From NCBI RefSeq assembly GCF_000259075.1, contig NZ_AJKI01000006.1, positions 1-60,107 on the forward strand: a DNA stretch of 60,107 bases, read 5' to 3'. Below are positions 36,598 through 55,461 of the stretch, in pieces; the first letter of the stretch is position 1, and each line of letters opens with the position of its first letter. The notes below the pieces were generated by a model that was not told where the DNA came from, searched no databases, and saw only the letters and a program-made list of their open reading frames with translations. The stretch is from Marinilabilia salmonicolor JCM 21150 (lineage in GTDB: Bacteria > Bacteroidota > Bacteroidia > Bacteroidales > Marinilabiliaceae). Position numbers and translations under genes: made by a program.

Positions 36598-39500
36598 TTA
36601 TCTGACTACCTTTTCTGTTTTAATAGTTCCACCGGTTTTTACGCGAACAACATAAACGCCGCTGTTATCAGGTAAATCTATTTCACTTTCCGTTTCATTT
36701 GTAGTAATCCTGTCCATTAAGCGGCCGTTCATATCCAACACTTCAATAAGTGCACCTGAAGACTGTAACAAGTCGGAACTAATTTTCACAAGCGCATATT
36801 CACTCCTTCCAATAATCGAAATATCTCCAGTATTAAACTCATCAGAATCATTAAGATTGGTTGGTATTTCCTGTGTTTTCTCCAGATGGAGAACAAATCT
36901 GTTATGCTCATGACCCTGATGAATAGGCATAAACACATATTCCGGATACTCCTTCATATTTACCCATGCTCCTGTTTCCTTATCCTCAAGAAATACATCA
37001 TAATTGGCTTCAAATCGGGACAGATTAACCGAAATCTTTGTCTCCTCAATAATGCGGGTTCTAACACTCACTGGCAAAGAATATGCAGGCTCAGTCAACA
37101 AGAACTTTCCGTTAATACTAAAAGCATTTCCTCCAATGCGGGTATAGATTTCAGGAATATTTTTGGAATCATTAAATCGCTTTTCAGAATCCTCTCTTCC
37201 CTTTTCATCCATAAAATTATCCGAAAAGTAGATAACGGTTCCATCCAGGGCTTTTGAATTACTAATTTTCAACCGTATAATATTAACTTCCTGCGAACCA
37301 CCAGATCCTGCACTCTTCAATCCAACACTATTATCCTTAACCCTTGTTTCCGGTGAAACTGTCAATGTTGAGTTTTCTTTTTCAGCCTTTATCCATACAG
37401 TCTGATAAGGCGGAATATAACTTACATTTTCCTCAGTCTGACCGAACGCCTCAGGAGGCAGAGCATACACCCCGGGATCATCATCCCCACCGTTGTTGTA
37501 TGTTTGCCAGGTTCGCTCTCCACCAAAAGTTACCCGATTCCACATTGTATTACCAAAATCGCTTCGTCCCCACCCGGAAGGATCTTCCCAGTCTATAGCT
37601 GTTGGATATGGATTGGCAAACAAATGATGGTCAATTTCTGCAAAAGTTCTGGAAAGCTCACCAACATTAATCTCTCCTTCATAATCCAATACTTTATTCT
37701 GATAATACCAGGTACTAACACCTTCCATCTCGTTTAAGTCAATATCTCCAACCACTCTCAACCACTGGTTTCGTCCATTCTTGTAGCGAAGAACAAATAC
37801 CCAATCAATCGAATTCGGGTCATTATTCAAATCCCCAAACCATGAAGCTTTTGCTTTTCCATCAACTTCAGAACGCAAAGGAGAACCGATATACCAGTAA
37901 TAGTTCTTTGGCATATTCATAACTACATTCCCGATTCCTGCTTTAGTTGGTAATTCCGGCAAATACAAAGCAGCCAATGCATCTGCGTCACTTTCAAGGG
38001 TTATCTTTCCATCATTTACCACATCTCCGGTAACCTCCAACATCACCCCGGGCTTCACAACAAGGTTGGCATTCTCCTCGATGGTAAGCCAGGTAAGATT
38101 CATATCACTGGTTATTTCAGGAGCATGAACACTATTTCCTGAAATGGTAATATCTCCTGTTGATGGAACAACATTGGCACACCAGTTAACCGGATTGTTC
38201 CAGTCGGCATCCGCTGAGCCCATCCACAAGCCATCAGTAGCAACAACAGAAACTGCTATATCATTCGAAGTCGTGCTGCAACCATCTGCTGAAGTGGCTA
38301 CCACATTCACAACGTCAGCATCCATAAGATTAACGGGTTCAAATGTTTCAGAAGCACCATTTTGCCCGGAAACTCCGTTAACAAAGAATTCATAGCTCAA
38401 ACCAGTTATTGTTTCAGCAGGAATCGCTGTAAATACGGGACTATTGTTCACACACAAGGAACCTTCAATATTTGATTCCAATGTGACGCCGGATATGGCT
38501 TCATTTACAGTAATTCCAATTTCTCTCGGATCACTCTCTCCGCAATTATTTTCAGCTGTAACTGAAAGAGTTCCACTTGTAGCTGAAATACCAAAGGAAA
38601 GCGAAACAGAATTTCCGGTGCCGTTTATTATTACATCTTCACCGGAATAACTCCAGTTATAGTTCGATATGGTTACATCCAAAGGCACAGTGAATACCAC
38701 ATTGTTCACTCCCTGGCAAACTTCAGTGTCGTACTCGGTAAACTCACCAGGTTGATCCGCCAGAACCGGGAAAGTAATGGTAACCTCATCAGACGATGTG
38801 CACTCACCATTGCTGATGGTCCAAAGCAGGGTATAAGAGGAACCATTTGTGCCACTAAAATCGCTTGTAGCAACGGTTGGCTGATCAATAGTGCCTCCGG
38901 TTCCTGAAACAATGGTCCACAAACCTTCTCCCACAAGTGGATTATTACCTTCCAAAACAGTGGCACTGGCCCCACAAAGAGACTGATCTTCACCTGCATC
39001 GGCATCGGTAGGTGTGGCATATACTGTTACCTCTCCTTCATCCACTACACCAGTTCCGTTTCCATTGTCATAAGTGTAACCTGTCAATTGATAAACACCT
39101 GATTGTGGAGTAGACAATACATAAGGTATCGAAGTCACAGTTACCGCACTTTGGGCTACCCCATCAATGGTATAATTCAACACATAATTAAACGGCACAG
39201 GGAATGAGGAAGTGAAAGTAACAGGTATTCCTGCTGATGTTCCACAAATTGCACCATCGGGAGTTAACTTGGCTTTTGGCTTCACTGTATTCAATGTAGC
39301 CGATGTAAAATCCATCTCCCCGGCAGCAGGAACAGTCACTCTGGAATCAGTAATGATTGTTCCGTTATTATTAGACCCTGAGGCGGAAGATGAAATTTCT
39401 GTCCACTCTGATGCCAAAGCATCATAACCCACCACTAACAAATCATCCACTCCCCCAACAGTAATCAATGGAGTTACATCACTTGATGCATCCCAGTTAA

Positions 39501-42500
39501 TAGAAATCCGGGCTTTGCTGCCTGAGGGCGCACTTACTTTCCAGTATTCTTTGGAGTTTACGTAAGTTACCGGATTATTATAGTTGGCATAGGTGGTATT
39601 GGGAGTAAAATACTCCACTTTCCAGTCAGTGATTCCGCTCTGTGTAGCCACCAGGGTAAGCTTGTTGCCCAACGCTCCGTCTTTTCCCACAGGAAATCTG
39701 AATGAATCGCCCTGGTTAATACGCTTGATAAGCGGACCATTAATATAAGAATCAGCCCGACCACCAACAGGTGAAACACTGGTGCCCAACGAATTGGTAA
39801 TCGTCAATGGATTGGCATCTGAAGTATTAATGACACCACTGGTGAGTTGTAAAATACCCGAAATTTCAGTTGCTCCATTAATAGTAAGACCGCTGTTGTT
39901 ATCAATCTCCAGATTGTTAAATGCATTGATGCCGTTGAAGTCTCCTGTTGCCCCACCAATGTTTTGCGCTGAATTTCCTGCAAAGCGCACGGTAGCTTCA
40001 CTCCCGGCACCTGCTACAAAACGGCCACCATTGTAACGCTCCATTGTTCCACCGATAATCAGCGTTTTATTATTGACACTGTTGTCGAGCGTTGCACCGT
40101 CAATCACCAAACTGTTGCAAACAGTAAGGTTTTCATTCGGTAACACCCGGGTTCCGGTACCTGAAATTTTCAGATTGGGGATAGAGGTAAACAGGTCGGC
40201 TACGATATTGTAGTTACCCGATCCGCCAAATTCCAACGTTGAATTTCTACCACAGTCTAAAAAGTCGGTATAACGACCGGCAGGCATTACGGGACTCTCT
40301 ACATATAGAGTCCCTTCCCCCTCGATGGATCCAAGATTGTGACCAATATACGGACTGACAATTTTCAATTGATCATTAATAATGGTACGATAAGCAAAAC
40401 AGTTGTCTGCATCTGCGGTCACCGCTGCATTAATGATAACCACTGCACCATTGGGGCCGCCTTCCGGACAGGCAGGAGCATCCCCCACAGGTGTCCAGAT
40501 ATTTTTATCACTCCAGTTTCCTGAAACATTGGCTTCATAAGAAGGAACCTTATCAGGGATCTCCGATACAAAGCCTGCGGTATATTCACCACTTACAGTG
40601 TTGGCTCCACCAAAAGTAAAAGAAATGGTGTTGTTGCTCTCATCAACTTTATCTGTGGCAGCTCCGGGAGTTGCTTTACTCCAACTGGTTCCTGGAACAA
40701 GAAGTCTTGCTGCCACATAATTATTCTCGTCAGCAGCTGCCTGTAGAATATCGTCATCATGGTACACCATGTCAAAGCTGCCAGAGAATCCGCTGAGACC
40801 AGCGCTCTCTACCTCCCAGTAATAATCCAATACACGGAAAGGACTTTTGGCAGAAGGATGTTTTTCGTTGATGGTATTCACTCTTACAGAACCTACCTGG
40901 CTGTTTTGAGTAATATTAAGAACCGCCGGTGTGTATTTGCCCGCCAACCCCATAGGGAAGGTAAAGGTCTCCGGGGAACCTATCACCGGAAGATACTTTT
41001 TGATACCAATATTACTGTAAACCCCATCGGATGTGATCATTTTGAAATTATTAAAGTCGCTTCCCTGAATATCTGAGTTTACACCAAGGGTCAGTAAATT
41101 GTCGTTGATATCAAATATTCCATTCGACAATATCAGGTTATTTTCCAGTGTGATGTCATTTTCAAGTCGTGCTCCTTTACTATCGTTCAATTCCAAACGT
41201 CCGAACGTACCTGTTCCGGAAAGAAGATGTCGGGTATCTCCATTAATGAGCAGCACTCCCCCCGCATCATCATCACTTTCGTAATTGGCATTGTTAATCA
41301 GGTCACCTTCAATGGAAACCAGATTCGCACCCGTAATCAACCTGCCCGAAGCAAGCTCCATATCGTTAAAAACATTAACATCCCGACTAAGTGTAACAGA
41401 GGTGACCGGATTTATTTTCAGATCATAGAAATCAGTAGCAGTGTTTCCTTCGATGCTTTGTTCTCCGCCGCTGAAAGTTGTAAGGTTATTATAATGATTG
41501 TAAGTTCCGTTGTTTACCATATTCCCTTTGATGATCAGGTCAATATCAAACTCACTATTCGCGTCAAAAACTGAGTAGGTGTTACTCAAAGTCATATCTC
41601 CTTGTAATGTAAGGGCGCTCACCATCATTTTCACCATAGCATCAGAGCCGGCAGCACCTGTGACTGTAAGATTATTCAACGGAACGTTTGCATCCACCAG
41701 ATAAGTCTGGTCTCCTGTTGAAGCGACGAAAACAATCTCTCCACCTGTAACATTGGAGGTCTCCGGTCTCAGATATAGGTCTCCATAGCTGTTGCCGCCA
41801 CCACCACGCAAGATCTTTAAGGTTCCACCTGACATATTAAATCTACTGCCGGCATTGAGTACTTCCAGTTTGGCATTGGTAGTAAGAGTCTTGCGACCAT
41901 TAATGGTCACTTCTCCCCCACTTTGCAAATAACTCAGGATGCCACTGGTAGTTGCCGGATTGCGTCTAATCTGCCCGTTGACAACCAGTTTTCCACCTCT
42001 CACATCAATGGTTGAGGCACCACCTCCGGCATATTCAATGTCATTGTTATTATTCCGGCTGTTAGGATCACCCACATATACCTCCCCCTTTACAATAGTC
42101 AATTTTCCATTGAGGAAAAGGTCATTATTATCAGAATTGTCATCCCCAATGAGTACCCGCCTATTGTTCGAGTTATCATAATCAACGTACAATCCTGCCG
42201 TTGAAGGAATAGTAAACGGAGTGGATGTAGAAATAGTAAAATCTGAATTGGGATTTACACGTTTGTATTCCAACGTACCATTCTCCAGGGTCAGCCAATT
42301 GTTATCGGGAGTATTAAGATCACCCGCAATGTCGATGGTCAGTTTGGTGGACTGTGAAGAGCCTTTGTTAACTGTTACTTCTTCAAACTGCGTATCAGGG
42401 GCGCCGGAAGTATTGGTGATTTTGGCATCACTATCTCCGAAGAAAGTAACCGGGATACCGGAAAAATCACAACCCGCATAAGCATTAGCTCCATTCCCAA

Positions 42501-45500
42501 ATGAAGCATTATTTACAAGGTCGCCACCAATCTTAAAACTTTGGTTATTGGCATTACTGTAAACCTGAATACCGGCTCCCTCGCTAACAACAAGATCGCC
42601 TTCAATTATAAAGTTTTGTGCCAGATTCCCGTTATCATAAAAGATCAAAGCACCACCCTCCAAATTAAAGTTACCCTTAATTGATATTGTTTTAGCCTTT
42701 TTCCCGGCTGGACTGGTAGGATAATTTGAATTCCAGGTAGGTGCATACCATCCCTCAGAAGTCAATCCCTGAGTGGTTAAATCACCATAAATGGTAACAT
42801 CTGTATTTCCAAAGATAATATTAGATCCCCCCATTGGTGTCACTACAAGATTTCCATAACTTTCAATGTCATTTGGCAACCAATAAGTAGTTCCTGCCGT
42901 ATTATTGATTGTGTACAACTCTGTTGTACCCAGGTTTTTATTAAAATCAGTAAAATCTCCTTTAGGGAGTTCAAAGGTACTTCCTGATGAATAAGCGGTA
43001 CTGACCCTCAACAATCCATTGCCATTGGGATGAGACATTACAATGCCAAAGTTACTGGCAGGACTATATTTTACATCCAGTACTCCACCTGTTTCAATTT
43101 GAAGAGTTGCGCAATTTTGAACATCTTCATTTTTAGTATTTCGATTTGGATAACCGTTCCTATTTGTTGAACGTTCCAACGAAACAGTATGCCCAGTCCC
43201 AATAATCACAACATCTCCTTCTGCGGGAATTCTGGATGCAGCATTACCGGAATGCCCGGTTGTTGACCAGGTATTTGTTTGATTCCAATTACCTGAGCGA
43301 CGACTGTAAAATTTTGAAGGTTCTCCAAAAGCAGTTACTACTCCTGCTGTATAATCCCCGTCAATAAAATCAGTACTTAATCCGGGGGATGTCCAATCAG
43401 AAATGGTATTATTTCCTGAGTTGACACTGGATGCTGTCCCATAGTTCCATGTATAATTCCCGGCATCATATACAGCGGGGATATAATTCGATTCAGTGCC
43501 GCTGACATCGGATTGGTTGTAAACAAAACTATGGGTAACCTTTCCTTCATAACCGGTAAAACCTTCCGACTTCACTCTCCAGAAGTAATCCAGGGAAACA
43601 TTTTCAGCAGTTACTACTGGGTGGGCATAATTCACCGGCACAACCGTAATACTGCCATAGCTGCCCGGAGCGGAACTGAACCCCATTGCTGCAGGAGTAT
43701 AACCTTCTACCCCCACAGGAAAAACCCGGGATGCAGTTGAATTATATGCGATGGTTAATCCGCCATCACCCGCGTTTCCGGCAGTTTGAATAAACCGGTC
43801 GTTACCGGCTCCCGAAATAGCAGCATCTGCTCCCAACCTCAGGTTTTGTGTATCAATATTAATATGCTTAGCACTCGAGAATGTTAATGTTCCGTCAACA
43901 GAAATATCAGCAGTTAGAGACACAGGTGCTGCAGCTCCATTGTTATTATTGAGGGTCAGGTTTCCAAATGCGCCGTTGCCATCACCTCCAATAGTCTGAA
44001 CTGACGATCCGTTAAGTTGAATAGATCCATCGCCAGTATGAGTCCCCGAATTGGTCACGTTTCCTTTTACAAACAACGTTTTTCCACCATCATCGAATAT
44101 CCCCTTGGTTAAGGTAAATGCTCCCTGCACCGTCAAGCCGGTCATATCTCCATCCAAACTCAAAACCCCACCATCTTTACTAACCGTCAAATCTGCCAGT
44201 CCGTCATTTCCATTGTTTACCGTACCGCTTACAGAAAACAGCTGATCAACTTTACCATTAAAAAGAGTGGTATTGGTTCCTGAATGGTAAGTGCCATTGG
44301 CTGCAATATTAAAATCACCACCCACTGTTACATCCAAATTGTTAGCTCTCAGCCCACCGCGTGTTAGATCGATATTTTTTATTACCGTCAATGCATAATC
44401 ATCGTTCAATGTAAGCAGTGCGCCTGCATTTGAGCGATCTACAACAATGTTTCCAAAGGGTGCTTGTGAGCGTATCTTAAAATCATTATTGCCATTGAGC
44501 GAAAGGAATTTAAACGTTCCGCCTGTTACATTGATGTTGTTATCGGCCGAAAAGATATCAACTGCGTAGTTGTTACCTCCACAAACATCATAGATCTCTA
44601 CCTCTCCACCGGACATTGCAAAAACATTGGCCTCCGCATTGATGTTAAAAGTTCCTTTACTTCCCTCAAGCCCAGAAGTTGATGTGTTGGTATTTATGGT
44701 TGCCTGTGAAACAGCTCTCAAATCAGCAGGTGAATTGTACTGCGAAGGCGTACGCTGATAGCGACCGCGCAAAGCAAGCGTTCCTCCTGTTTGCATGTAA
44801 GAAGCCAGTCCTGATGCACCTCCTGCTGCTCTAAACTGCTTGGCATCGATGTATCCGCCATTTATATCCAGCTGTCCTGAAGCCTTGTCCCAGGTAATAA
44901 GGCCACCAGACTCCCTGGTGGAGAAATAACCGTCATCCACCTGAAAGCGACCATAAATTGAGAAGGAGGATGCATTGGAACCTTTGTTTACTCCGTTAAC
45001 TTCTCCTGTTCCACCCGAAACGCCATAAGCAGCATTCACTTCGGCATAATTATCGGCAGTATTCAGTAAAATCACCTCCGGCCCATTAAGCAACAAGGCG
45101 CCGTTCACAGGAATATAGTAATCACTATTGGGAGTACCTCCGCCACCGCCTTCAGTCAAAGAGGGAATGACTGTAAGTCCTGTCAGTTCCAGAGTTCCTG
45201 TTCGAATCCAGAGTGCCTTTTTAAGGTTGGGATTTTCCTCCGTAGCACCGTTGGTGTCTCCACCTGAACTATTGGCGCCAAAAAGGCGAAAGTTTTCGTA
45301 AGCTGATGAATAAACAGTCAACTTATATGTCTGATCCAAACCTTTGTCAAGAACCAGGTTGTAAAAATCCGTGGTACCGTTACAGGTAAGCTTATTGTTG
45401 CCTGCACCCTGGAAATAGACCGTTGCAGCACCTGTTTTTCCGCTGGCTGACGGAAAACTGTTAAAAACAGGATAATCAAGGTTGGTGAAACGAACCGTAC

Positions 45501-47523
45501 CATTGTTGGTAAAGTCGCCTTTCAATATTACGGTATGAAAATGGGTGTAGTAATCCAAAAACGGGGCGGTTCCACCTGTAATGCCATTAGGATTATTTGT
45601 AGTGTTGGTTTTTCCTGTGCCTGTGATTATTGATGCACCATTATCGACTGTCACATTGCCATTCACGGTAAGGCTTAGCGGATTGGTGACGCTGTTATTG
45701 CCAATTCGGAAAGTCCCCGATTCTACCTGAAAGTCCCCGTTGATGGTAATATCATTGAGGAGGGAAGCTCTATTGCCGGTGGTATTTATAATTAAATTAT
45801 TGTAAACACTTTGAGCGGGCAGCTCAAAATCTGAGGAGTTGTAATACTCTGTTGTTCCTCCACCGGATTGGACAAAGTCATTTATTAATACTGATGGAAA
45901 GTTATCAGAGGCAAGCCGGAATGTCCCGGTTCCCCGCAATGCTTCAAAGCCATTAACAAACTGAAATTCTGACTGATCCAAAATCCCGCCATCATTAATG
46001 GTAGCATCCAGTCTTGATGTCGACACATCCCCTTCAAGACGAACTACCCTTCCATCCAAAATGGTAACTTTATCATTTTCGCCGGGGATATCCGTCGCAG
46101 TCTGAGTGGTACCGCCAGGATCATGGGTCCAGGTATCAACAACGTCCCAATCGCCAGATTTATAGGAATAATAATGCGTAGATGGAGTGTGAGAAATGCC
46201 ATACCTTGTCGCCAAATCATCATTTATCGCGATTTCCTCAGCAGGTAAAAGAGATTGATCATAATATATAATTTCTGCAATTTCCCCTCTGAAATTAGCC
46301 CCTCCACTCTGGTTGCCACCATTTTCATCACGCGTACCACCATCCGTAAAACCGATGGATATATCTCCTGAATGTGCATTTATAGAAGAGATTGAGCCAT
46401 TTGAAGACTGATTGGAAAAAAGAGAATTGTTCAACTTCGCAGACAGGTCTCCCTTATTCCAGTTGAATGAGAGCACGTATTTTGTATTGGCAGTTACGGA
46501 TTCGTAAACTGTTAATCGCTCTGCTCCATTATTATTATAAATTGTTACGTAAACATTGTTGTTCTTTATAAAAACACCTATTCCATTTGTCCCTCCACCT
46601 TGCTCATATAAATATTGGGTTCCTGATACATCAGAACCGGTTTTAAAAGCAAGCGCCATGGTTCTCTCATCACCATTGTAACCATTTCCGGAATTAATTC
46701 TGCCGTCATCCGTTATATTTAGCTCTTGCGAACCATCAAAGGACAACACCTCTTGATTATTCATTTCTATAGAAACAACCTGATTTGGCCCGTCAGGATC
46801 GGGAGTGGCATCATTGCCGTTACCGGATTGATCTGCCCATTCAGATATCGGGTTTGAACCACTAACACCCAGATCGCCACGAAGCCAATAAACCAAATTG
46901 ACACCATTTCCTCCGGGGATCTTTGAACCGGTTATCTCTACGTCGTCAATATTCCATCCTGAATAGTTCCAACCAGAATCCGTAGAGCCTATAGCAAAAC
47001 GTAATTTCACATTAGGGTTGTCATTTGCACTTACCGGTAATTGAATACTTTGTAAACTCCAGGAAGATTCTTGCAAAGTAGTATTAGGATTTTCCCATAT
47101 ATTTATCCAGGTTGTACCATCGTAGTAATCAATGTAGCCATGATCGTAATAACTCTGTTCTAAGTTCAACCATCGTTGAAAATTAAGAGTAATATTTGCG
47201 TAACCCGAACAATCAATTGTTGGTGATTCGGCTATGTAGGCTCGATCGCCAAGATAATCGGAGTACGCCCCATCCAAATCAGTACCTATAACGTTTGTTC
47301 CGCTATAAGCATCTGTAGGATTTGGGTTACCATGACTACCACTTCCTCCTGCAGGTGCTCCCCGTTCAAACTCTCCTGTCAAAGTCCATCCCTGGTCTGT
47401 TTCAAAATCATCAAAAAACATTGTTTCCTGGCCAAAAGAGCTATTTGTAAATAACACAAGGATAAAACCGACCAAAACTGGCTTAGCAATTTTAAACAAG
47501 CAAATGGGATATATTAATTTCAT
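36598..47523 (-). CDS. Giant secreted T9SS protein with three super-repeats
   Basis: A 3641-residue protein, 18% of the window. Signal peptide 1-32 (ends SSFGQ). Then: a jelly-roll/MAM-like domain (about 33-200, ending SGWNIDDVEI), a LamG-like domain (about 207-440), super-repeat 1 (about 450-1398), super-repeat 2 (about 1400-2325) and a shorter super-repeat 3 (about 2326-2744), Ig/PKD-like domains (about 2750-3098), and a C-terminal module (about 3099-3641) shared with two neighbouring genes. Each super-repeat opens with a SG-W-(x)4-TW/IW header, continues as many parallel beta-helix-like strands (N-L-x-I ... G-D/N motifs) and closes with a FPVG/FPMG sandwich segment. The last ~75 residues are a type A sorting domain ending VVRVKTGGTIKTEKVVR. 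Likely a cell-surface adhesin or matrix protein. Confidence 0.85.
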   Translation of the reverse strand: MKLIYPICLFKIAKPVLVGFILVLFTNSSFGQETMFFDDFETDQGWTLTGEFERGAPAGGSGSHGNPNPTDAYSGTNVIGTDLDGAYSDYLGDRAYIAESPTIDCSGYANITLNFQRWLNLEQSYYDHGYIDYYDGTTWINIWENPNTTLQESSWSLQSIQLPVSANDNPNVKLRFAIGSTDSGWNYSGWNIDDVEITGSKIPGGNGVNLVYWLRGDLGVSGSNPISEWADQSGNGNDATPDPDGPNQVVSIEMNNQEVLSFDGSQELNITDDGRINSGNGYNGDERTMALAFKTGSDVSGTQYLYEQGGGTNGIGVFIKNNNVYVTIYNNNGAERLTVYESVTANTKYVLSFNWNKGDLSAKLNNSLFSNQSSNGSISSINAHSGDISIGFTDGGTRDENGGNQSGGANFRGEIAEIIYYDQSLLPAEEIAINDDLATRYGISHTPSTHYYSYKSGDWDVVDTWTHDPGGTTQTATDIPGENDKVTILDGRVVRLEGDVSTSRLDATINDGGILDQSEFQFVNGFEALRGTGTFRLASDNFPSVLINDFVQSGGGTTEYYNSSDFELPAQSVYNNLIINTTGNRASLLNDITINGDFQVESGTFRIGNNSVTNPLSLTVNGNVTVDNGASIITGTGKTNTTNNPNGITGGTAPFLDYYTHFHTVILKGDFTNNGTVRFTNLDYPVFNSFPSASGKTGAATVYFQGAGNNKLTCNGTTDFYNLVLDKGLDQTYKLTVYSSAYENFRLFGANSSGGDTNGATEENPNLKKALWIRTGTLELTGLTVIPSLTEGGGGGTPNSDYYIPVNGALLLNGPEVILLNTADNYAEVNAAYGVSGGTGEVNGVNKGSNASSFSIYGRFQVDDGYFSTRESGGLITWDKASGQLDINGGYIDAKQFRAAGGASGLASYMQTGGTLALRGRYQRTPSQYNSPADLRAVSQATINTNTSTSGLEGSKGTFNINAEANVFAMSGGEVEIYDVCGGNNYAVDIFSADNNINVTGGTFKFLSLNGNNDFKIRSQAPFGNIVVDRSNAGALLTLNDDYALTVIKNIDLTRGGLRANNLDVTVGGDFNIAANGTYHSGTNTTLFNGKVDQLFSVSGTVNNGNDGLADLTVSKDGGVLSLDGDMTGLTVQGAFTLTKGIFDDGGKTLFVKGNVTNSGTHTGDGSIQLNGSSVQTIGGDGNGAFGNLTLNNNNGAAAPVSLTADISVDGTLTFSSAKHINIDTQNLRLGADAAISGAGNDRFIQTAGNAGDGGLTIAYNSTASRVFPVGVEGYTPAAMGFSSAPGSYGSITVVPVNYAHPVVTAENVSLDYFWRVKSEGFTGYEGKVTHSFVYNQSDVSGTESNYIPAVYDAGNYTWNYGTASSVNSGNNTISDWTSPGLSTDFIDGDYTAGVVTAFGEPSKFYSRRSGNWNQTNTWSTTGHSGNAASRIPAEGDVVIIGTGHTVSLERSTNRNGYPNRNTKNEDVQNCATLQIETGGVLDVKYSPASNFGIVMSHPNGNGLLRVSTAYSSGSTFELPKGDFTDFNKNLGTTELYTINNTAGTTYWLPNDIESYGNLVVTPMGGSNIIFGNTDVTIYGDLTTQGLTSEGWYAPTWNSNYPTSPAGKKAKTISIKGNFNLEGGALIFYDNGNLAQNFIIEGDLVVSEGAGIQVYSNANNQSFKIGGDLVNNASFGNGANAYAGCDFSGIPVTFFGDSDAKITNTSGAPDTQFEEVTVNKGSSQSTKLTIDIAGDLNTPDNNWLTLENGTLEYKRVNPNSDFTISTSTPFTIPSTAGLYVDYDNSNNRRVLIGDDNSDNNDLFLNGKLTIVKGEVYVGDPNSRNNNNDIEYAGGGASTIDVRGGKLVVNGQIRRNPATTSGILSYLQSGGEVTINGRKTLTTNAKLEVLNAGSRFNMSGGTLKILRGGGGNSYGDLYLRPETSNVTGGEIVFVASTGDQTYLVDANVPLNNLTVTGAAGSDAMVKMMVSALTLQGDMTLSNTYSVFDANSEFDIDLIIKGNMVNNGTYNHYNNLTTFSGGEQSIEGNTATDFYDLKINPVTSVTLSRDVNVFNDMELASGRLITGANLVSIEGDLINNANYESDDDAGGVLLINGDTRHLLSGTGTFGRLELNDSKGARLENDITLENNLILSNGIFDINDNLLTLGVNSDIQGSDFNNFKMITSDGVYSNIGIKKYLPVIGSPETFTFPMGLAGKYTPAVLNITQNSQVGSVRVNTINEKHPSAKSPFRVLDYYWEVESAGLSGFSGSFDMVYHDDDILQAAADENNYVAARLLVPGTSWSKATPGAATDKVDESNNTISFTFGGANTVSGEYTAGFVSEIPDKVPSYEANVSGNWSDKNIWTPVGDAPACPEGGPNGAVVIINAAVTADADNCFAYRTIINDQLKIVSPYIGHNLGSIEGEGTLYVESPVMPAGRYTDFLDCGRNSTLEFGGSGNYNIVADLFTSIPNLKISGTGTRVLPNENLTVCNSLVIDGATLDNSVNNKTLIIGGTMERYNGGRFVAGAGSEATVRFAGNSAQNIGGATGDFNGINAFNNLEIDNNSGLTINGATEISGILQLTSGVINTSDANPLTITNSLGTSVSPVGGRADSYINGPLIKRINQGDSFRFPVGKDGALGNKLTLVATQSGITDWKVEYFTPNTTYANYNNPVTYVNSKEYWKVSAPSGSKARISINWDASSDVTPLITVGGVDDLLVVGYDALASEWTEISSSASGSNNNGTIITDSRVTVPAAGEMDFTSATLNTVKPKAKLTPDGAICGTSAGIPVTFTSSFPVPFNYVLNYTIDGVAQSAVTVTSIPYVLSTPQSGVYQLTGYTYDNGNGTGVVDEGEVTVYATPTDADAGEDQSLCGASATVLEGNNPLVGEGLWTIVSGTGGTIDQPTVATSDFSGTNGSSYTLLWTISNGECTSSDEVTITFPVLADQPGEFTEYDTEVCQGVNNVVFTVPLDVTISNYNWSYSGEDVIINGTGNSVSLSFGISATSGTLSVTAENNCGESDPREIGITVNEAISGVTLESNIEGSLCVNNSPVFTAIPAETITGLSYEFFVNGVSGQNGASETFEPVNLMDADVVNVVATSADGCSTTSNDIAVSVVATDGLWMGSADADWNNPVNWCANVVPSTGDITISGNSVHAPEITSDMNLTWLTIEENANLVVKPGVMLEVTGDVVNDGKITLESDADALAALYLPELPTKAGIGNVVMNMPKNYYWYIGSPLRSEVDGKAKASWFGDLNNDPNSIDWVFVLRYKNGRNQWLRVVGDIDLNEMEGVSTWYYQNKVLDYEGEINVGELSRTFAEIDHHLFANPYPTAIDWEDPSGWGRSDFGNTMWNRVTFGGERTWQTYNNGGDDDPGVYALPPEAFGQTEENVSYIPPYQTVWIKAEKENSTLTVSPETRVKDNSVGLKSAGSGGSQEVNIIRLKISNSKALDGTVIYFSDNFMDEKGREDSEKRFNDSKNIPEIYTRIGGNAFSINGKFLLTEPAYSLPVSVRTRIIEETKISVNLSRFEANYDVFLEDKETGAWVNMKEYPEYVFMPIHQGHEHNRFVLHLEKTQEIPTNLNDSDEFNTGDISIIGRSEYALVKISSDLLQSSGALIEVLDMNGRLMDRITTNETESEIDLPDNSGVYVVRVKTGGTIKTEKVVR

Positions 47524-47730
47524 ATCTAAACCTGTATAATTAATTTTCTTATTACAAATTCTGCCTGTATTACAGACAAATTAACTTTCACAAAAATATA
47601 CTCTATCACTTACCTTTTACCCCACTTAAATCAACACAGTTGGAACTATTACACGAATACGTTCAAACCATTGACAAGTGACAAAAAAATATAGATTTTG
47701 AAAAAGGAATTTTATCGAAACCGTACTGAC

Positions 47731-47910
47731 TAGTGTCGGTCCATAAACTAAGCTATGCTTGCTACAGGTCATGTGTATTTTTAGAATATGCTAGTTGAAA
47801 TCCCGATGCTTCGGGATGCGAAGCCGCTAAAAGCGGAGTCCCGATGCTTCGGGATGAGTATTTTGCCGGCAAGCGTAACGCAGCAAATGGTACTTTATGG
47901 ACGGACACTA
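47731..47910 (-). mobile_element. 180-bp MITE-like element, copy E
   Basis: Read on the minus strand it begins TAGTGTCCGTCCATAAAGT and matches the left half of copies A and C (TGCGTTACGCTTGCCGGCAAAA). Its other end (TAGTGTCGGTCCATAAACT on plus) resembles the right end of copy B. The interior carries two ATCCCGATGCTTCGGGAT palindromes. Confidence 0.75.
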
Positions 47911-47913
47911 ACT

Positions 47914-47948
47914 AAAAGCCCCGTTCCAAAAATATGGAACAAGGCTTT
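47914..47948 (-). terminator. Terminator after the second T9SS gene
   Basis: AAAGCCCCGTTCC pairs with GGAACAAGGCTTT; the composite 3' region (47911-48013) matches those at 36461-36560 and 50640-50740, including CTTCACAGGG and the G-rich repeat. Confidence 0.75.
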
Positions 47949-48079
47949 ATCTTCACAGGGTAATGAAGTGATATCGTGGCCCCTTAAATCCCCCAAGGAG
48001 GGCCTTTGGGGAATAGACATGGTTAATTTACAAGTTCTCTTTACACATTTGGCCCATGCCTTAAGAACAGGAATAATAT

Positions 48080-50407
48080 CTATCTGGCAAACTTTTCAGT
48101 TTTGACAGTTCCTTCTGCTATAACCCGAACCACATAAACGCCATGGAAAGCAGGCAGTGAAACTTCGGTTTCTGAACTTCTGGTTTTAACGGTATCCAGC
48201 ATACGTCCACTCATATCCAGCAATTCAATGGTTGCGTCGGAAGAGTAGAGCAATTCAGGACTAATACGTACCAATACATCTTCCTTTTGTCCCAGAATGG
48301 TCACAGAGTCATCATTTTTGGTTTCCTCTTCGATGGCTGTGGCTACCGACTGTACTTTTGAAAGGTGCAAGACAAAACGATCATGATCATCTCCCATTTG
48401 ACGGGGAGTGTAAACATACTCTTCAACATCTCCCAAATTAATCCATGAACCGGTTTCTTTATCTTCCAGTACCACTTGGTAATTGTTGGAAAATTCGTTC
48501 AGGTCAACTGAAAGTTTTACTTCTCCTTCAATTCTGTTGCGAACACTCAAAGGGATAGAATAATTGGAAGCGGAAAGCGATGGAAGACTATTAATGGCAA
48601 GTGGCTTATCATCTATTCTTGTATATAATTCAGGAAAAGCCTTTGAATCATTGAATCTCTTGTCTCCATCAAAACTATCATAACCGGTTGCCCCGTTATT
48701 ATTAAAGAAAATTACCGCACCATCAACTATTTTATCATTTTTGGCCTTAATTCTTAAAACGTTCATTTCTGATTGCTCAGAAGAACTGGCACTTTTAAGA
48801 GGTAAAGATCCTTTGGCTTTAACTTTTGAATTTTCAGAAACCGTAAAGGTTGCATCGCTTTTTTCTGCTTTAATCCAGACTGTTTGATATGGGGCAATAA
48901 AACTCTCATTCTCTTTTGAATAACCCAACACTTCAGGATCGATGGCAGAAAAGAAAGTATTGTATGTTTGCCAGGTTCTGTATGTTTCTCCATCAAAACC
49001 CTTTCGAGTAACTCTAAACCACATAGTTTGAGAGAATTTCAGTCCGTCACGATTTTCTTGTTCCAACACATCCCAGTCTATTGAGGTTGCATAAGGGTTT
49101 CCTAATAAATAGAAATCAGGCTGACCATAAGTCGCAGAAACATCTCCTGAGTTCAGCTCTCCTGTATAGTCCAATTGCTTTTCCTCATCGTAGTACCAGG
49201 TACTCACACCTTCCAACGGATTTAAAGTAATATCGCCTACAACACGCAACCACTTATTTTTTCCATTACTTTCTCTAAGAACAAAAACCCAGTCTTTTGC
49301 ATCTGGCTCATTATTGAGGCTGCCAAACCAATCAGCCCTTGCGTCTGCCAATGGCGTACTCAGGTACCAATAGTTATTCTCAGGCACTTTAAGCCTCACA
49401 TTGGCCTCTCCAACTTTGGCTGCATTCTCAGGAAGCATCAAAGAAGCCAGTTGATCTGCTTCAGACTCTAAAACAAACTGCCCGCTATTAGATACATCTG
49501 TTGTAACATCAAGAGAGGCACCGGGCTTTATGACCAACTTAGCACCCTCAATAATTGTAAGTTTTGACAGTGTAATATCACTATTAATTTGAGGAGCATT
49601 GTCTGATATTTCAATTTTCACTGAAGAATCAAACTTTGGCAGTTTATTTCCTTTCCAGTTATCCGGATTAGACCAATCGGTATTTTCTGAACCAATCCAT
49701 GAAATTACCGGATTCAACATTCCAATACTTTCTATAAGATCTTTAAGATCGGAGTCTTCACCGCTATTCAATAGATCATCCAGATCTCCATAAGAATTGT
49801 CATCTTCTAAAATACTTCCTTCAGGATAAGAAATTTCGGCATCGGGATTAATAATATATAAATCATCAGGTTTGGCTTTAAGCCCTCCTCCAGAATGCGA
49901 GAAGTCTCCACCAACAATAAGGTTACCTTTATTCTGTACATGGGTATTAGAAGAAGTTGAGAAGTCACCTTTCACGATGATATCTCCATTTGATTTCAGG
50001 TTACTTCCGGTAGATGAAAGATTACCATGTACAATTAAAACACCCCCTTTATCAACCTGAATTCCGGCAGAACCTTCCAAATTACCAAAAATCTCAACAT
50101 ACCCGTCTTTGGTAACAGTCAGTCCGCTCCAGTTATTATTGTAGTAGTTTTCCGTAACAATAAAAGTTCCGTTGACGATAACATCTACCGGGTTGAGTTC
50201 TCCGTTTCTTGTTATACTGCCATTGATAGTCATTTTTTTATCCACAGTACCATCGGCAGAGGGTGCGTTACCTTTTTTCCATACATCAGTTTGCTCAAAA
50301 TCACCATCTGCATTACGCTCAGTTTCGTAATCGCCACCTGGCTTGGCATTGATGTTCAAAGCTCCAACAAAAATTAACCCAATTAATGTGTAGTAAAAAC
50401 GTTTCAT
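48080..50407 (-). CDS. Secreted T9SS protein with short beta-helix N-terminus
   Basis: A 775-residue protein starting MKRFYYTLIGLIFVGALNIN, a signal peptide; a longer frame from 50443 is rejected because it covers the shared leader. Residues about 55-190 form a small repeat region with three to four ~22-residue units (GGVLIVHGNLSSTGSNLKS, GDIIVKGDFSTSSNTHVQN, GNLIVGGDFSHSGGG), as in polymerising beta-helix proteins. From about 234 to the end it carries the C-terminal module shared with the two neighbours (EGVSTWYYDEEKQLDYTGEL, LLGNPYATSIDW), closing with a type A sorting domain ending VVRVIAEGTVKTEKFAR. Exported by the T9SS and probably anchored to the cell surface. No enzymatic motif is visible. 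Confidence 0.85.
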   Translation of the reverse strand: MKRFYYTLIGLIFVGALNINAKPGGDYETERNADGDFEQTDVWKKGNAPSADGTVDKKMTINGSITRNGELNPVDVIVNGTFIVTENYYNNNWSGLTVTKDGYVEIFGNLEGSAGIQVDKGGVLIVHGNLSSTGSNLKSNGDIIVKGDFSTSSNTHVQNKGNLIVGGDFSHSGGGLKAKPDDLYIINPDAEISYPEGSILEDDNSYGDLDDLLNSGEDSDLKDLIESIGMLNPVISWIGSENTDWSNPDNWKGNKLPKFDSSVKIEISDNAPQINSDITLSKLTIIEGAKLVIKPGASLDVTTDVSNSGQFVLESEADQLASLMLPENAAKVGEANVRLKVPENNYWYLSTPLADARADWFGSLNNEPDAKDWVFVLRESNGKNKWLRVVGDITLNPLEGVSTWYYDEEKQLDYTGELNSGDVSATYGQPDFYLLGNPYATSIDWDVLEQENRDGLKFSQTMWFRVTRKGFDGETYRTWQTYNTFFSAIDPEVLGYSKENESFIAPYQTVWIKAEKSDATFTVSENSKVKAKGSLPLKSASSSEQSEMNVLRIKAKNDKIVDGAVIFFNNNGATGYDSFDGDKRFNDSKAFPELYTRIDDKPLAINSLPSLSASNYSIPLSVRNRIEGEVKLSVDLNEFSNNYQVVLEDKETGSWINLGDVEEYVYTPRQMGDDHDRFVLHLSKVQSVATAIEEETKNDDSVTILGQKEDVLVRISPELLYSSDATIELLDMSGRMLDTVKTRSSETEVSLPAFHGVYVVRVIAEGTVKTEKFAR

Positions 50408-50474
50408 AATATCACTAAATTTAACCCTGTTCAAAAATTCCACCTCTTGTTTGAGGTTTCTGTGTCGTTATACA
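50408..50474 (-). promoter_or_regulatory. Shared 5' leader of the second T9SS gene
   Basis: On the minus strand: TGTATAACGACACAGAAACC ... GAACAGGGTTAAATTTAGTG then ATATT and ATG. The leader at 54275-54343 is clearly related in order and spacing, and contains a CCTC...GAGG hairpin equivalent. Confidence 0.6.
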
Positions 50475-50788
50475 GGGTTCATTAGCGTTTGTTGGGAAGC
50501 TTTGACGAACTGCTGTTAGGCTCTTGATAAATGGAAATCTTTTGAGGATAAAAGTAAAGGAGACTTTTAATAATTTAAGGAGAGGGTGGATTTTGGAGAA
50601 GGGAATTAGTTGAACAGGCAGAAGGCAGAAGAAACAATCAAAAAAGCCCCGCTTCCAACGTTTTGGAGCGGGGCTTCTTAACTTCACAGGGTTAATTGTG
50701 ATGAGGTGGCCCCCTAAATCCCCCCAAGGGGAACTTTTCCGGAAGCTTTTATTGTATTGATCAATTTAACAACATCAAAATGTCGTGA
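50475..50788. other. Gap with the 3' region of the third T9SS gene
   Basis: Apart from the leader upstream of the second gene and the composite 3' region (50640-50740) of the third, no gene or repeat is seen. Confidence 0.6.
50644..50676 (-). terminator. Terminator after the third T9SS gene
   Basis: AAGCCCCGCTTCC pairs with GGAGCGGGGCTT, with a T-run on the minus strand. Stem bases differ from the other two copies but remain paired, which suggests selection for the hairpin. Confidence 0.8.
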
Positions 50789-53700
50789 TTACCTAATAAC
50801 CTTTTGGGTCTTAACAGTACCTCCGGCATTTACACGAACCACATAAACGCCATTCTCTGAAGGCAACGCTATTTCCGTTTCTGTATCTCGGGTATTCTTA
50901 TTGGTAATCTGTCGGCCGTTAACATCCAATACATGAATGACTGCTTCTGAAGATTGAAGCAATTCAGGACTAATCCTTACCGCAGCATAGTCCTTTTTCC
51001 CAATTATTTGAATATTTAATGCATCGTCAACGGACTCTTCAATATCAGTAGGAACTTTTTGAACTTTGGATAAATGCAATACAAACCGATCATGATCATC
51101 CCCCATGATACGAGGATTATAAGCATACTCGCTCACATCTCTCATATTAATCCATGAGCTTAACTCTTTATCTTCAAGCACCACATCATAAGCATCTGTA
51201 AATTCCCTTACATCAACAGACAACTTAACTTCTCCTTCTATCCTGTTACGAACACTTAATGGAATGGAATAAGCGGTTCCTGAGAGCTGTGGCAAACTGT
51301 TAATTGCAAGAGGAGTGCTATTTAGCATGGTATATAACTCCGGAATCGCTTTTGAATCATTAAACCGTTTATCACTATCAAAACTATCTCTACCTGGATC
51401 TCCAGCATTGTTAAAGAAAATTACCGCTCCATCTACTGTTTTATCGTTTACCGCCTTAATTCTTAATACATCCATTTCTGAATTATTAGAGGATCCTGCA
51501 CTCTTTAACGGTAATGCTCCGGTATGCTTTACTTTGGAATTCTCCGATACAGTAAAAGTAGCATTGCTTACATCCGCCTTAATCCAAACAGTTTGATAAG
51601 GGGCAATATAACTTTCGTTCTCTATTGAATAGCCGAGTTCCTCTGGATCTATTGCTGAAAAAAATGTATTATAGGTCTGCCAGGTTCTATAAGTCTCTCC
51701 ATCAAATCCTGTTCGACTAACCCTAAACCACATTGTTTGTGCAAAGTCCAGTCCATCACGGTTCTCAGCCTCTAAAATATCCCAGTCAATTGAAGTAGCA
51801 TAGGGATTACCAAGCAGGTAATAATCCGGTTGCCCATAAGTAAAAGATATATTTCCCTTGTTTAAAGTACCCGAATAATCCAATTGTTTGTCCTGATTAT
51901 AATACCAGGTACTTACTCCTTCAAGTGGATTCAATGCAATATCTCCAACAACTCTCAACCATTTATTCTTTCCTCCGCTTTCTCTTAATACAAACACCCA
52001 GTCCTCTGCATTCGGATCATTATTCAAATTTCCAAACCACTCTGCTCTGGCATTTGCAAGCGGAGAACTTAAGTACCAGTAATAATCCTTCGGTACAGTC
52101 AATTGAATTCTGGTTCTTCCCTCAGGAACAATCACATCTCCTAAGTCCATAAAAGTTATCAACTGGTCGTAGGTGTTTTTTAATATCAGGCTATCTAATA
52201 TGGTAAGAGATGCATTTTCTGAGATTGTAAATTGTGCGCCGGGTTTTATTTCTAAAGAACCGATTTTCGAGATTGAATTAACATTAACAACTTCATTTTC
52301 CGGGATTATTGCTCTGTTTGAACTCCATGGTGATTCAAGAGTACCCCAACTCCAATTGTCGATAGTATTAAAGTCAAAATCACCAGCAGTTCCAACCCAT
52401 AAATAGGGAACAGAAGAAACTACAAATGATTCAGCAGTAACACCGATTAAATTGGCACTATTATTAATATTTGAAATATTCTTCAAATTGTTTCCAATTA
52501 TACCTTCATTAAACTGGAAATAAGAAATTAAATTCACTGGCTCCCCAGTTACAGTTGAAAACATATTGTTTTGGATTTCTTCCTGCGTTCTGGCTATATC
52601 CCAAACTCTTAGTTCGTCCATACTACCTATAAAAGGGTCATCGCCTGTTGTGACATCACCTCCAATGGCAAATGAAGCATTTGGATTAGAAAATTGGGAG
52701 CCGGTTGTTATCGGCTCAGAAGCAACAACTTCCCCATTAACAAGAAGACTCATATCTGTAGAGTTTGCCACTCCGGCAACATGTATCCATTGCCCGTTGT
52801 ATAACCATGGAGTACTAACACGGTCATCACTTTCTACCATAAAAACCAATTCATTATTCTCTACAAAGACCATAGCGTCTCCGATCTGACCGAATATTCC
52901 CATTAATCCGCCATTATAAGACATCTTGATCCATCCTTCAATGGTGAATTGTACGGGATCTGCTAAAACAGGATTGTCAGTTGCAGCTTTTGCACCATAA
53001 AAGTTCAATTGATTTCCAGCATCCTCTGAAACCTCCTCACTAACAAAATTCATCAAATAATCCTCAACTTCACCGTACGCAACATTTCCACAAGCATATA
53101 ATACATCTTGCTCTTGATGCGCAAGTTTTATCCTCATACCCACCAGACCTGATTTAAAACCCTCAGGCAAAGAAACTGTTTTTCCTCCTATAGGTTTACC
53201 TTCAGTTCCAGTAATGGTTAACGCATGCCCAGCTTCTTCAAAGACTCCATCATTGTTCCAATCTAACCAAACGGTCATATGTGTTGTACCCCAAGAACTA
53301 TTCTTTTTTGCCCACGCAACATTATCACCTGAAACCTGGATAAAAACAGAACTATCATTATTAATTGAAATCTCAGGAACAATATTGGTGAAATTGGAAT
53401 AGTTGGTATTTTCCGAGGGATTAACAAAGTTATCTCCAATTTGAACTTCGGAAATATGCCCATTATACCAATCTTGAGCTTCAGCCGGACAATTAACGAT
53501 TATATATCTGTCTATTGAAATTGTATTAGAACCTATCCCATTATCAACAGTAAGAGTTACAGAATATAAACCTGATTCATCAAACTTCACAACAGGATTG
53601 GCTGAATTTGGAGATGTATTTTCAAGAAAAGTAATATTTCCGGATGGATCAAATTCCCACTTAAAAGAGTTTGGTGCTTCTGATGAAAGATCAAAAAAAC

Positions 53701-54274
53701 TAACCTGACCTCCTTCTTTAATATAACGAACATCAGAAGTAAATGCTGCGACAGGCTCACTTGTTGCAGTATGACTTGTTACTTTGATATCATCAAAATA
53801 TCCTCTTGCCTGATTATTCGTGGAAGTAAAGTTGATTTTTAACCGAAGTGAACTAACATCCCAGTCATCTTGTGTTAAGGTAATAACATAATTTTGCCAT
53901 TCATTTTCAGCCTGAAGAGTTGCAATGTCTAGATCTAAACCTTGAACATTTCCCCATTCATTAATATCTTCAACTAGACCAATATTCAATGAGTTAATCT
54001 GAGCCTGATTATTAATACCAGTATTCTGGAACCTAAATCTAATCTTAATTTGATCTGAATTCGCCCAATCTAAATCTACTTTTTCAGAATAATACAGTCC
54101 GTCTTTCGCTTCAAAGTAATCATTTTTTATATCAGCCCCGCCGCCCCAAACTTTAAACCAGTCATTTAAAATCCAGCTCTTCCCATCAAAATTCTCTTCA
54201 TAAATTACTGTTTGGCTAAATAATGAATTTAACCCCATCAACAGCCCAATCAATACTATGTAAAACTTCTTCAT
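50789..54274 (-). CDS. Secreted T9SS protein with PKD, GEVEDY and LamG-like domains
   Basis: An 1161-residue protein with a signal peptide (MKKFYIVLIGLLMGLNSLFS). Then a jelly-roll domain (about 22-170), a PKD domain (about 175-265, YSVTLTVDNGIGSNTI), a GEVEDY-type domain ending YGEVEDYLMNF (about 270-400), a LamG-like domain (about 420-610, FTIEGWIKM and GSMDELRVWDIARTQEEI) and the shared C-terminal module (about 630-1161) with a type A sorting domain ending VVRVNAGGTVKTQKVIR. The domain set is of binding and scaffold types; there is no catalytic motif. It is closest to the second gene in the module, and its 5' leader is related to that of the second gene. Confidence 0.87.
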   Translation of the reverse strand: MKKFYIVLIGLLMGLNSLFSQTVIYEENFDGKSWILNDWFKVWGGGADIKNDYFEAKDGLYYSEKVDLDWANSDQIKIRFRFQNTGINNQAQINSLNIGLVEDINEWGNVQGLDLDIATLQAENEWQNYVITLTQDDWDVSSLRLKINFTSTNNQARGYFDDIKVTSHTATSEPVAAFTSDVRYIKEGGQVSFFDLSSEAPNSFKWEFDPSGNITFLENTSPNSANPVVKFDESGLYSVTLTVDNGIGSNTISIDRYIIVNCPAEAQDWYNGHISEVQIGDNFVNPSENTNYSNFTNIVPEISINNDSSVFIQVSGDNVAWAKKNSSWGTTHMTVWLDWNNDGVFEEAGHALTITGTEGKPIGGKTVSLPEGFKSGLVGMRIKLAHQEQDVLYACGNVAYGEVEDYLMNFVSEEVSEDAGNQLNFYGAKAATDNPVLADPVQFTIEGWIKMSYNGGLMGIFGQIGDAMVFVENNELVFMVESDDRVSTPWLYNGQWIHVAGVANSTDMSLLVNGEVVASEPITTGSQFSNPNASFAIGGDVTTGDDPFIGSMDELRVWDIARTQEEIQNNMFSTVTGEPVNLISYFQFNEGIIGNNLKNISNINNSANLIGVTAESFVVSSVPYLWVGTAGDFDFNTIDNWSWGTLESPWSSNRAIIPENEVVNVNSISKIGSLEIKPGAQFTISENASLTILDSLILKNTYDQLITFMDLGDVIVPEGRTRIQLTVPKDYYWYLSSPLANARAEWFGNLNNDPNAEDWVFVLRESGGKNKWLRVVGDIALNPLEGVSTWYYNQDKQLDYSGTLNKGNISFTYGQPDYYLLGNPYATSIDWDILEAENRDGLDFAQTMWFRVSRTGFDGETYRTWQTYNTFFSAIDPEELGYSIENESYIAPYQTVWIKADVSNATFTVSENSKVKHTGALPLKSAGSSNNSEMDVLRIKAVNDKTVDGAVIFFNNAGDPGRDSFDSDKRFNDSKAIPELYTMLNSTPLAINSLPQLSGTAYSIPLSVRNRIEGEVKLSVDVREFTDAYDVVLEDKELSSWINMRDVSEYAYNPRIMGDDHDRFVLHLSKVQKVPTDIEESVDDALNIQIIGKKDYAAVRISPELLQSSEAVIHVLDVNGRQITNKNTRDTETEIALPSENGVYVVRVNAGGTVKTQKVIR

Positions 54275-55446: not shown

Positions 55447-55461
55447 CACCAAACCACCATC

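Follow-up and report, generated by a model that had tools for sequence, protein, structure and literature searches.

The window, a 60,107-nucleotide stretch of Marinilabilia salmonicolor JCM 21150 (contig NZ_AJKI01000006.1; genome G000), contains three neighbouring genes, all on the minus strand, whose products P0001, P0002 and P0003 share a C-terminal module divided here into M1, M2-M3, and a linker with the sorting domain:

36598..47523, minus strand: P0001, T9SS surface protein, 3641 aa, long N-terminal region (PKD_6 match at residues 2932-3002)
36601..38226, minus strand: P0001 C-terminal module, residues 3100-3641 (blastp/profile alignment)
37906..38226, minus strand: P0001 M1 (W-x-G...NW part, about 107 residues; M1 profile)
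36877..37905, minus strand: P0001 M2-M3 (NPY...YQTVWIKA part and the next part up to RFVLHLEK)
36601..36876, minus strand: P0001 linker and type A sorting domain (TIGR04183 at residues 3586-3640)
48080..50443, minus strand: P0002, T9SS surface protein, 787 aa (GTG start)
48083..49699, minus strand: P0002 C-terminal module
49379-49699, minus strand: P0002 M1
48356-49378, minus strand: P0002 M2-M3
48083-48355, minus strand: P0002 linker and sorting domain
50789..54274, minus strand: P0003, T9SS surface protein, 1161 aa (PKD-like, GEVED and LamG-type matches, then the module)
50792..52399, minus strand: P0003 C-terminal module
52088-52399, minus strand: P0003 M1
51065-52087, minus strand: P0003 M2-M3
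50792-51064, minus strand: P0003 linker and sorting domain

The borders given for P0001 and P0003 in the preliminary description stand, whereas P0002, previously placed from an ATG at 50407, is now read from a GTG at 50443, and the strand has been added. The collinear C-terminal region of ~540 residues claimed for the three products is clearly seen by blastp: residues 3100-3641 of P0001 and 249-787 of P0002 are 50% identical (E 9e-164), 3099-3641 of P0001 and 625-1161 of P0003, 46% (E 9e-135), and 249-787 of P0002 and 626-1161 of P0003, 64% (E 0), that is, the similarity is far above chance. It is not that of the sorting domain alone, as over module residues 108-448, which do not include this domain, P0002 reaches 79% identity with P0003 and 53% with P0001. 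Beyond the C-terminal ~540 residues, the proteins show no further mutual match (blastp, E 0.01). The N-termini, described earlier as unrelated, do differ within the genome, but for each of them related sequences occur elsewhere in the family; e.g., that of P0002 (~250 residues) belongs to a family present at the same locus in several genomes. M1, the first ~100 residues, is the weakest part of the module (M1 profile scores of 91, 80, and 36 bits for P0002, P0001, and P0003, respectively), and in evolution it follows the N-terminus rather than the rest of the module. A search of the three proteins for M1 repeats upstream within P0001 gave a best other M1-like match too weak to count (i-E 0.005).

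According to Pfam and NCBIfam, only the last ~55 module residues belong to a named family above cut-off: TIGR04183, the T9SS type A sorting domain, scores 32.8, 27.2, and 41.4 bits in the three proteins (cut-off 23), while Pfam PF18962 remains below its cut-off of 27 (18.9, 15.2, and 25.1 bits). The remaining ~480 residues match no above-cut-off model of either library; below the cut-offs, Amnionless matches weakly at the start of the P0002 module (E 0.012), and so does MORN_2 in P0001 (E 0.23). The N-termini of all three proteins are hydrophobic, as judged by eye, and may be Sec signal peptides, and the SprA translocon is encoded in the same genome (PF14349 at G000:C63, E 9.5e-190). With both the sorting domain and SprA present, P0001, P0002, and P0003 are predicted T9SS type A substrates.

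RemA and RemZ of Flavobacterium johnsoniae (PDB 8gl6, 8gl8, 8glm, 8gln) are known T9SS adhesins and type A substrates. The module profile matches RemA residues 892-1434 (E 3.5e-58) and RemZ residues 576-1111 (E 1.6e-46); their C-terminal regions resemble the module nearly end to end, sorting domain included, whereas the passengers are unlike those of the window's proteins. The residues upstream of the sorting domain, thought earlier to be nameless, indeed have no Pfam or NCBIfam name, but the same region is found in these two adhesins. The profile also matches 59 of 198 genomes of the phylum, which, together with RemA and RemZ, excludes a module confined to this locus. A type A sorting domain adjoins the module in all 30 loci scanned, these being the best matches of the phylum search, in agreement with the initial proposal that one C-terminal module is reused on different N-termini. 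The novelty lies in how the module evolves, the region itself being already present in RemA, RemZ, and the phylum.

For its evolution in Marinilabiliaceae, we considered 21 genomes with 54 modules of nearly full length (E 3e-36 or better throughout, from among the matches listed), leaving out partial matches and lower-scoring full-length ones (e.g., G023:C481, G012:C71, G034:C3:3346009); four modules, single copies in their genome, were not scored in nearest-neighbour counts. Among the modules listed, the nearest module comes from the same genome for 37 out of 50 cluster-type modules, and for 50 out of 50 if sister species are excluded, the sister pairs having been picked after the tree had been seen. 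A point against is that the sorting domain by itself gives 38 out of 50. For the N-termini, the nearest relative is in the same genome in seven cases, elsewhere in 41, and absent in two (7/48 of those with a relative), and six of the seven are probably duplicates of whole genes (G023, G012). In trees of 31 and 54 of the listed modules, these cluster by genome or close species pair, with one of the three G012 copies standing apart from the others and the placement of G013 unsettled; the modules of the congener G001 group with those of G021 and G031, from other genera, and not with G000. AU tests on module data reject three N-terminal groups (p 6e-55, 4e-4, and 7e-47). For example, G011_3571 and G009_3591 have N-termini 76% identical over 3031 aa and modules only 63% identical, the G011_3571 module being closest to that of G011_2809 (77%). 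Other full-length, lower-scoring copies of the same genomes follow orthology. With these exceptions, paralogous segments resemble each other more closely inside a genome than across genomes, despite the greater age of the genes, which is concerted evolution: within a lineage, the parts from M2 to the sorting domain are more alike than the age of the N-termini allows, and the display regions keep older ancestries.

Probable traces of conversion are visible in DNA. Over 1211 bases of module, two genes of G001 are identical, as are 165/165 fourfold sites over module residues 50-400, while further upstream the proteins are 52-55% identical. Fourfold identity is 48 to 95% in 14 out of 40 within-genome module pairs (six in G009, three in G001, two in G023, and one each in G011, G021, and G031) and 29 to 38% in 11 cross-genome pairs. 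The other 26 within-genome pairs (18 to 41%), which include the window's own three (44/126, 32/81, and 31/86), show no recent conversion; for the window, the argument therefore comes from the tree and from the comparison with the sister species G004. The position of the step in identity varies from -159 to 161 (median 69; 40 pairs). In G006, two different giant genes lie on contigs whose terminal 224 bp agree at 99% identity, with divergence beyond. Near-identical C-terminal DNA under different N-termini, a mark of the hagA/rgpA/kgp kind of shared domain, is present in G001 and, for these 224 bp, in G006, and not among the window's three genes.

The comparison of the P0003 position with G004 gives three segments:

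50640..52096, minus strand: 1457 bp matching the corresponding stretch of G004 at 97.5% identity, reaching ~150 bp beyond the stop codon
52097..54231, minus strand: exchanged display segment, unmatched in the G004 locus (blastn, E 1e-10, pieces over 150 bp)
54232..56371: G004 homology back in pieces, the gene start and 5' flank (71, 84, and 93% identical)

In G004, the module DNA at this position sits beneath an unrelated N-terminus. From M2 to the end, 160/169 fourfold sites are identical, compared with 212/317 in the flanking CoA ligase and 138/282 at the end of the P0001 N-terminus. Two sister species hence have different display regions between a common leader and a near-identical module. 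This bears out the suggested exchange of display domains, but as the border lies close to module residue 100, the whole ~540-residue module is not the exchange unit.

We consider it probable that these proteins have a lineage-homogenised base that begins at about module residue 100 and bears exchangeable ectodomains; the function of the base is a matter of inference. The Marinilabiliaceae locus would encode several T9SS type A proteins, each with a signal peptide, variable display region, M1, M2-M3, and sorting domain. Gene conversion or homologous recombination between copies would homogenise the base, and recombination within the two shared parts, the module on the 3' side and the leader on the 5' side, could replace the display region, leaving the base untouched. 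More tentatively, M2-M3 may fold into an adaptor that links the sorting domain to the passenger, kept alike perhaps because the copies must fit one partner or pack together at the cell surface. As sfGFP fused to the RemA CTD gets secreted, according to PMC12618676, the module part upstream of the sorting domain is probably not required for secretion itself; the initially proposed role of the extra residues in secretion or attachment is conjectural.

Tandem arrangement by itself does not cause homogenisation: in f47, another family, whose genomes were selected because tandem copies had been visible in the phylum search, the nearest module is from the same genome in 0 out of 27 cases. A second gene pair in five of the Marinilabiliaceae genomes gives 0 out of 10, after two of 12 rows (G001, G016), single copies, had been dropped. 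In both controls, however, the same-genome partner lies outside the three or four best module matches, so divergence may already prevent recombination between these modules. This leaves a real, if less than even, chance that conversion is passive, the copies recombining merely through similarity and closeness, with the module as a spacer without a shared partner and its homogeneity functionless. The lack of recent conversion in the window's copies fits such passivity, while the recurrence of the pattern in many genera of the family speaks against it, as do copies on different contigs (G002, G003, G012, G013, G014), although these contigs may be chromosomal neighbours.

Modules grouped by genome would likewise result from birth and death, i.e., recent duplication of one gene per lineage, with N-termini then acquired from elsewhere and no conversion between standing copies, and likely whole-gene duplicates do exist (G023_2946/3295, G023_1156/1161, G012_C82b/C111). 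We find this unlikely, since the same N-terminal families (780-type, 2780-type, 3591-type) occur in several genera, with the same flanking genes in several stretches compared, and would have to be re-acquired in every lineage; moreover, 1211 identical bases below upstream protein of 52-55% identity require recombination anyway. That these are ordinary RemA-like T9SS adhesins, grouped by genome through a tree artefact or assemblies with collapsed repeats, seems very improbable: the region is indeed phylum-wide and present in RemA and RemZ, and several assemblies break inside the module, but the AU tests and both controls contradict this, and the signal is also seen within long contigs (G001:C45, 303,536 bp; G011:C5, 4.1 Mb). 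Returning to the homogenised base, a rather doubtful extension would make it a dedicated diversification platform, actively kept uniform for docking to a lineage-specific partner, with uniform DNA and leader serving as recombination arms that replace whole ectodomains at a fixed address, so that Rhs/CDI-type exchange would be mirrored at the C-terminus.

The usual picture of T9SS cargo is that of a passenger followed by a short sorting domain. In these proteins, ~340 additional residues, without a Pfam or NCBIfam name and not resolved in the structures of the papers considered, share the evolution of the sorting domain and not that of the passenger. This border may mark the end of the functional base in such adhesins, which sets a concrete limit for deletion tests. 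Titles and opening abstract lines of the literature, with most subscription journals outside the coverage, mention no homogenisation or exchange of T9SS cargo for this family; PMC7323717 has "concerted evolution" in its reference list only.

Rhs/CdiA-type and TANFOR polymorphic proteins also combine a constant delivery part with an exchangeable one, the constant part being N-terminal. In the window's proteins it is C-terminal, as required by T9SS, and Pfam recognised no toxin domain; TANFOR was not matched in Pfam/NCBIfam scans, whose libraries may hold no such model. PMC5266723 proposes that surface proteins of P. gingivalis undergo domain rearrangement, allelic exchange, and gene conversion, there among strains of one species, whereas the module has a split history across a family; the hagA/rgpA/kgp adhesin domains are of the cleaved adhesin type, for which P0001-P0003 gave no Pfam match at E up to 1. 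Our data suggest that, similarly, recombination remodels giant surface proteins in environmental Bacteroidota.

Mfa5 of Porphyromonas gingivalis (PDB 6to1), exported by T9SS according to PMC7835359, matches M1 and M2 (profile 1-275, E 1.2e-16), although it is a fimbrial tip protein. Its model covers residues 99-664, and the match starts only where this range ends or later, so that part is structurally unsolved too. The M. salmonicolor genome itself has three further, distant module copies, namely, a 287-aa protein with the module's C-terminal half only and a divergent pair on one contig.

Three adjacent genes of the window encode proteins with a common C-terminal module of ~540 residues, preceded by an N-terminal display region:

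36598-47523, minus strand, P0001, 3641 residues
48080-50443, minus strand, P0002, 787 residues
50789-54274, minus strand, P0003, 1161 residues

Aligned end to end, the last ~540 residues are 50% identical between P0001 and P0002, 46% between P0001 and P0003, and 64% between P0002 and P0003, and outside the module the three proteins have no further mutual match at the cut-off of E 0.01. This bears out the preliminary description, which had proposed a shared C-terminal region on neighbours with unlike N-termini; the similarity extends beyond the sorting domain, as TIGR04183 (NCBIfam, type A sorting domain of type IX secretion, T9SS), above cut-off in all three proteins, lies inside the final ~55 residues. 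For the rest of the module, the Pfam and NCBIfam scan of the three proteins gave no model above its own cut-off; a sub-cut-off Pfam match to Amnionless (E 0.012) falls on the start of the P0002 module (M1, 49379-49699), and amnionless, an animal protein, was also a weak match in a profile search among solved structures (E 0.079). Ahead of the module, P0003 matches GEVED, Laminin_G_3 and, under cut-off, a PKD-like model, and P0001 matches PKD_6.

From the alignments, we divided the module into four parts, the labels being our own:

Module residues 1 to ~107: M1, with W-x-G...NW
Up to module residue ~298: M2, with YWYLSSP, WFG.LNN, NPY.T.IDW and YQTVWIKA
Up to module residue ~448: M3, with the IPLSV...VLEDK...RFVLH part
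Last ~91 residues: linker and sorting domain

M3 can occur without M1 and M2, since in a 287-aa protein of the same genome, G000 (contig C11, 1489-2352, minus strand; L004), a signal-peptide-like N-terminus is followed by M3 and the sorting domain alone; among the matches listed, short ones resembling it were found in the relatives' genomes G001 to G004, G021, and G031.

The module has matches at six places in G000 and in 43 out of 61 near-relative genomes, G000 included (E 1e-6), and M2-M3 alone in 59 out of 198 genomes of the phylum, G000 included (E 1e-10). As to whether the module always stands beside a sorting domain elsewhere, the tail following M2-M3 matched TIGR04183 in all 30 loci scanned, which were the best matches of the phylum search (E 0.01). 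The ~450 residues for which the preliminary description knew no name have relatives among known proteins: in the search against solved structures, the module profile matched the Flavobacterium johnsoniae T9SS adhesins RemA (E 3.5e-58) and RemZ (E 1.6e-46) and, with M1-M2, the Porphyromonas gingivalis fimbrial tip protein Mfa5 (E 1.2e-16). According to the accessible parts of the sources, passenger domains are disordered in the substrate complexes (PMC10994853) and the Mfa5 crystal spans residues 99-664 (PMC7835359); hence, as far as these sources go, the PDB contains relatives of M2-M3 but no coordinates for this region.

In Marinilabiliaceae, the module genes are clustered on one contig, with open frames of, for example, 1168/795/3660 codons in the window, 2017/795/3565 in the sister species G004, 2788/785/3256/3536 in G001, and 811/3296/4426/3591 in G009. 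Among the stretches fetched, a CoA ligase gene flanks the cluster in G004, G021, and G031, and a TamB-like gene in G009, G011, and G024; the window also has a TamB-like gene near its cluster (24263-28774).

The N-termini and the modules have separate histories. N-termini group across genomes: in this region, P0002 shares 57-58% identity with G001_785 and G021_769 (genome and protein length), and the N-termini of G011_3571, G009_3591, and G024_3704 are 74-79% identical across ~2,650 to 3,030 residues. Modules do not track these groups, either in the tree of 31 modules or in that of M2-to-end alone; in both, G001, G003, G009, G011, G021, G023, G024, and G031 form their own clades, and G000 and G004 one joint clade. 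The module data reject enforced N-terminal groups (p 6e-55, 4e-4, and 7e-47 for the 3591-, 780-, and 2780-type, respectively), which were defined by N-termini, yet chosen after the first module tree was known. A tree enlarged by 23 modules to a total of 54, all near full-length and among the matches listed (21 genomes, 17 with at least two modules) retains the grouping by genome: ten of the 17 are exclusive (G001, G011, G014, G021, G023, G024, G028, G029, G031, G034), mixing is limited to sister species (G000/G004, G002/G003, G009/G027), the position of the G013 modules, next to congeneric G028, is unsettled, and one of three G012 copies is placed apart on a long branch. The tree does not simply mirror genus codes, since G001, of the window's genus, joins G021 and G031 of other genera.

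By BLAST bits, the nearest module lies within the same genome in 50 out of 50 rows with sister species excluded (for G000, G002, G003, G004, G009, G013, G028), and in 37 out of 50 without exclusion. For N-termini (up to 600 residues ahead of the module, sisters excluded), the nearest is in the same genome in seven rows, elsewhere in 41, and absent in two (Fisher's test of the two sets of counts, 1e-20, with rows not independent). Taken separately, M2 gives 48, M3 44, and the sorting domain 38 same-genome rows out of 50 with sisters excluded, short pieces carrying less signal. Sister species thus split faster than their modules homogenise, whereas most genera, on this evidence, split more slowly.

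Signs of conversion come from G001_3256 and G001_3536, which share 1,211 identical module bases and 165 out of 165 fourfold sites at residues 50-400; the final module stretch is 85% identical, and protein identity rises from 52-55% far upstream to 70-78% over the final 100 residues before the module. From module residue 110 on, fourfold identity is 48 to 95% in 14 out of 40 within-genome pairs (six in G009, three in G001, two in G023, one each in G011, G021, and G031); for the remaining 26, among them every pair of G000, G003, G004, and G024, it is 18 to 41%, and cross-genome pairs (n=11) show 29 to 38%. Thus, recent conversion is visible at synonymous sites in a third of pairs, and those of the window's own genome are not among them. 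Over the 40 pairs, the step in protein identity has its median at module residue 69 (range -159 to 161). In G006, two contigs that carry unlike giant genes have terminal stretches of 224 bp with 99.1% identity, beyond which they diverge, and a third is at ~82%, as expected for a collapsed repeat.

Where P0003 lies, the window shares 97.5% identity with G004 across 1,457 bp (50640-52096), from ~150 bp beyond the stop codon to 9 bases past the M2 border. For 52097-54231, blastn at E 1e-10 gave no match longer than 150 bp in the stretch of G004, and forced alignment of the 400 residues preceding the two modules yields 13-24% identity; from 54232, homology returns piecewise across the start codon and 5' flank. 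The display regions belong to different families, that of P0003 resembling G023_1161 (33%) and that of G004_2017 resembling G003_C135 (59%) and G023_1937 (30%). The window and G004 agree at 160/169 fourfold sites of this module and at 91/101 of the next gene's N-terminus, but the figures are lower elsewhere: 212/317 for the CoA ligase, 144/203 and 152/208 for the two remaining modules, and 138/282 for the end of the P0001 N-terminus. The P0003-module stretch thus seems to have been shared more recently than the DNA around it. Over 49679-52096, a stretch reaching from the N-terminus of P0002 to the module of P0003, the similarity is unusually high, which suggests recent DNA exchange between the two species. 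Differential loss by recombination of adjacent genes is as possible as import, because G023 holds relatives of both display types.

We consider a base homogenised within the lineage and carrying exchangeable display regions to be the best, and a rather probable, explanation, slightly less likely given that only 14 out of 40 pairs are raised at fourfold sites. Module genes are not homogenised everywhere. In another family of the phylum, f47 (ten genomes, each with two or three module genes inside the 20 kb fetched; G086, G160, and G223 treated as sisters), the nearest module was in the same genome in 0 out of 27 rows, and best matches without sister exclusion concur; a closely spaced module-bearing set of ~1215, 2675, and 2530 aa recurs in this distant family (L104 to L113). 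A second T9SS gene pair on a single contig of G000 (C12; L005, L006) has divergent modules, and for this 904- and 1705-type pair and its equivalents the count was 0 out of 10 rows in five genomes with two copies: it is inherited by orthology, not homogenised. Both controls are compatible with a passive reading of the homogenisation, as their modules may have diverged too far for recombination. Among reasons for M2-M3 uniformity, a hypothetical need to fit a common partner would be the most interesting.

In F. johnsoniae, according to the accessible part of PMC12618676, sfGFP is secreted when joined to no more than the RemA or AmyB type A sorting domain, so the signal for secretion probably does not lie in M2-M3; the same part describes type A substrates as served by PorV. 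SprA is encoded in G000. M2-M3 may instead be a putative folded adaptor or stalk. T9SS cargo, RemA-like C-termini, and recombination among surface genes, the last described for P. gingivalis in the accessible part of PMC5266723, are already known in kind. In the literature searched, no account was found of base and display region having separate histories across a whole family, with an ectodomain replaced between conserved arms. Upstream of the cluster, a LytTR response regulator (56434-57192) and a TPR-containing histidine kinase (57196-59001), both on the minus strand, could be its regulators.
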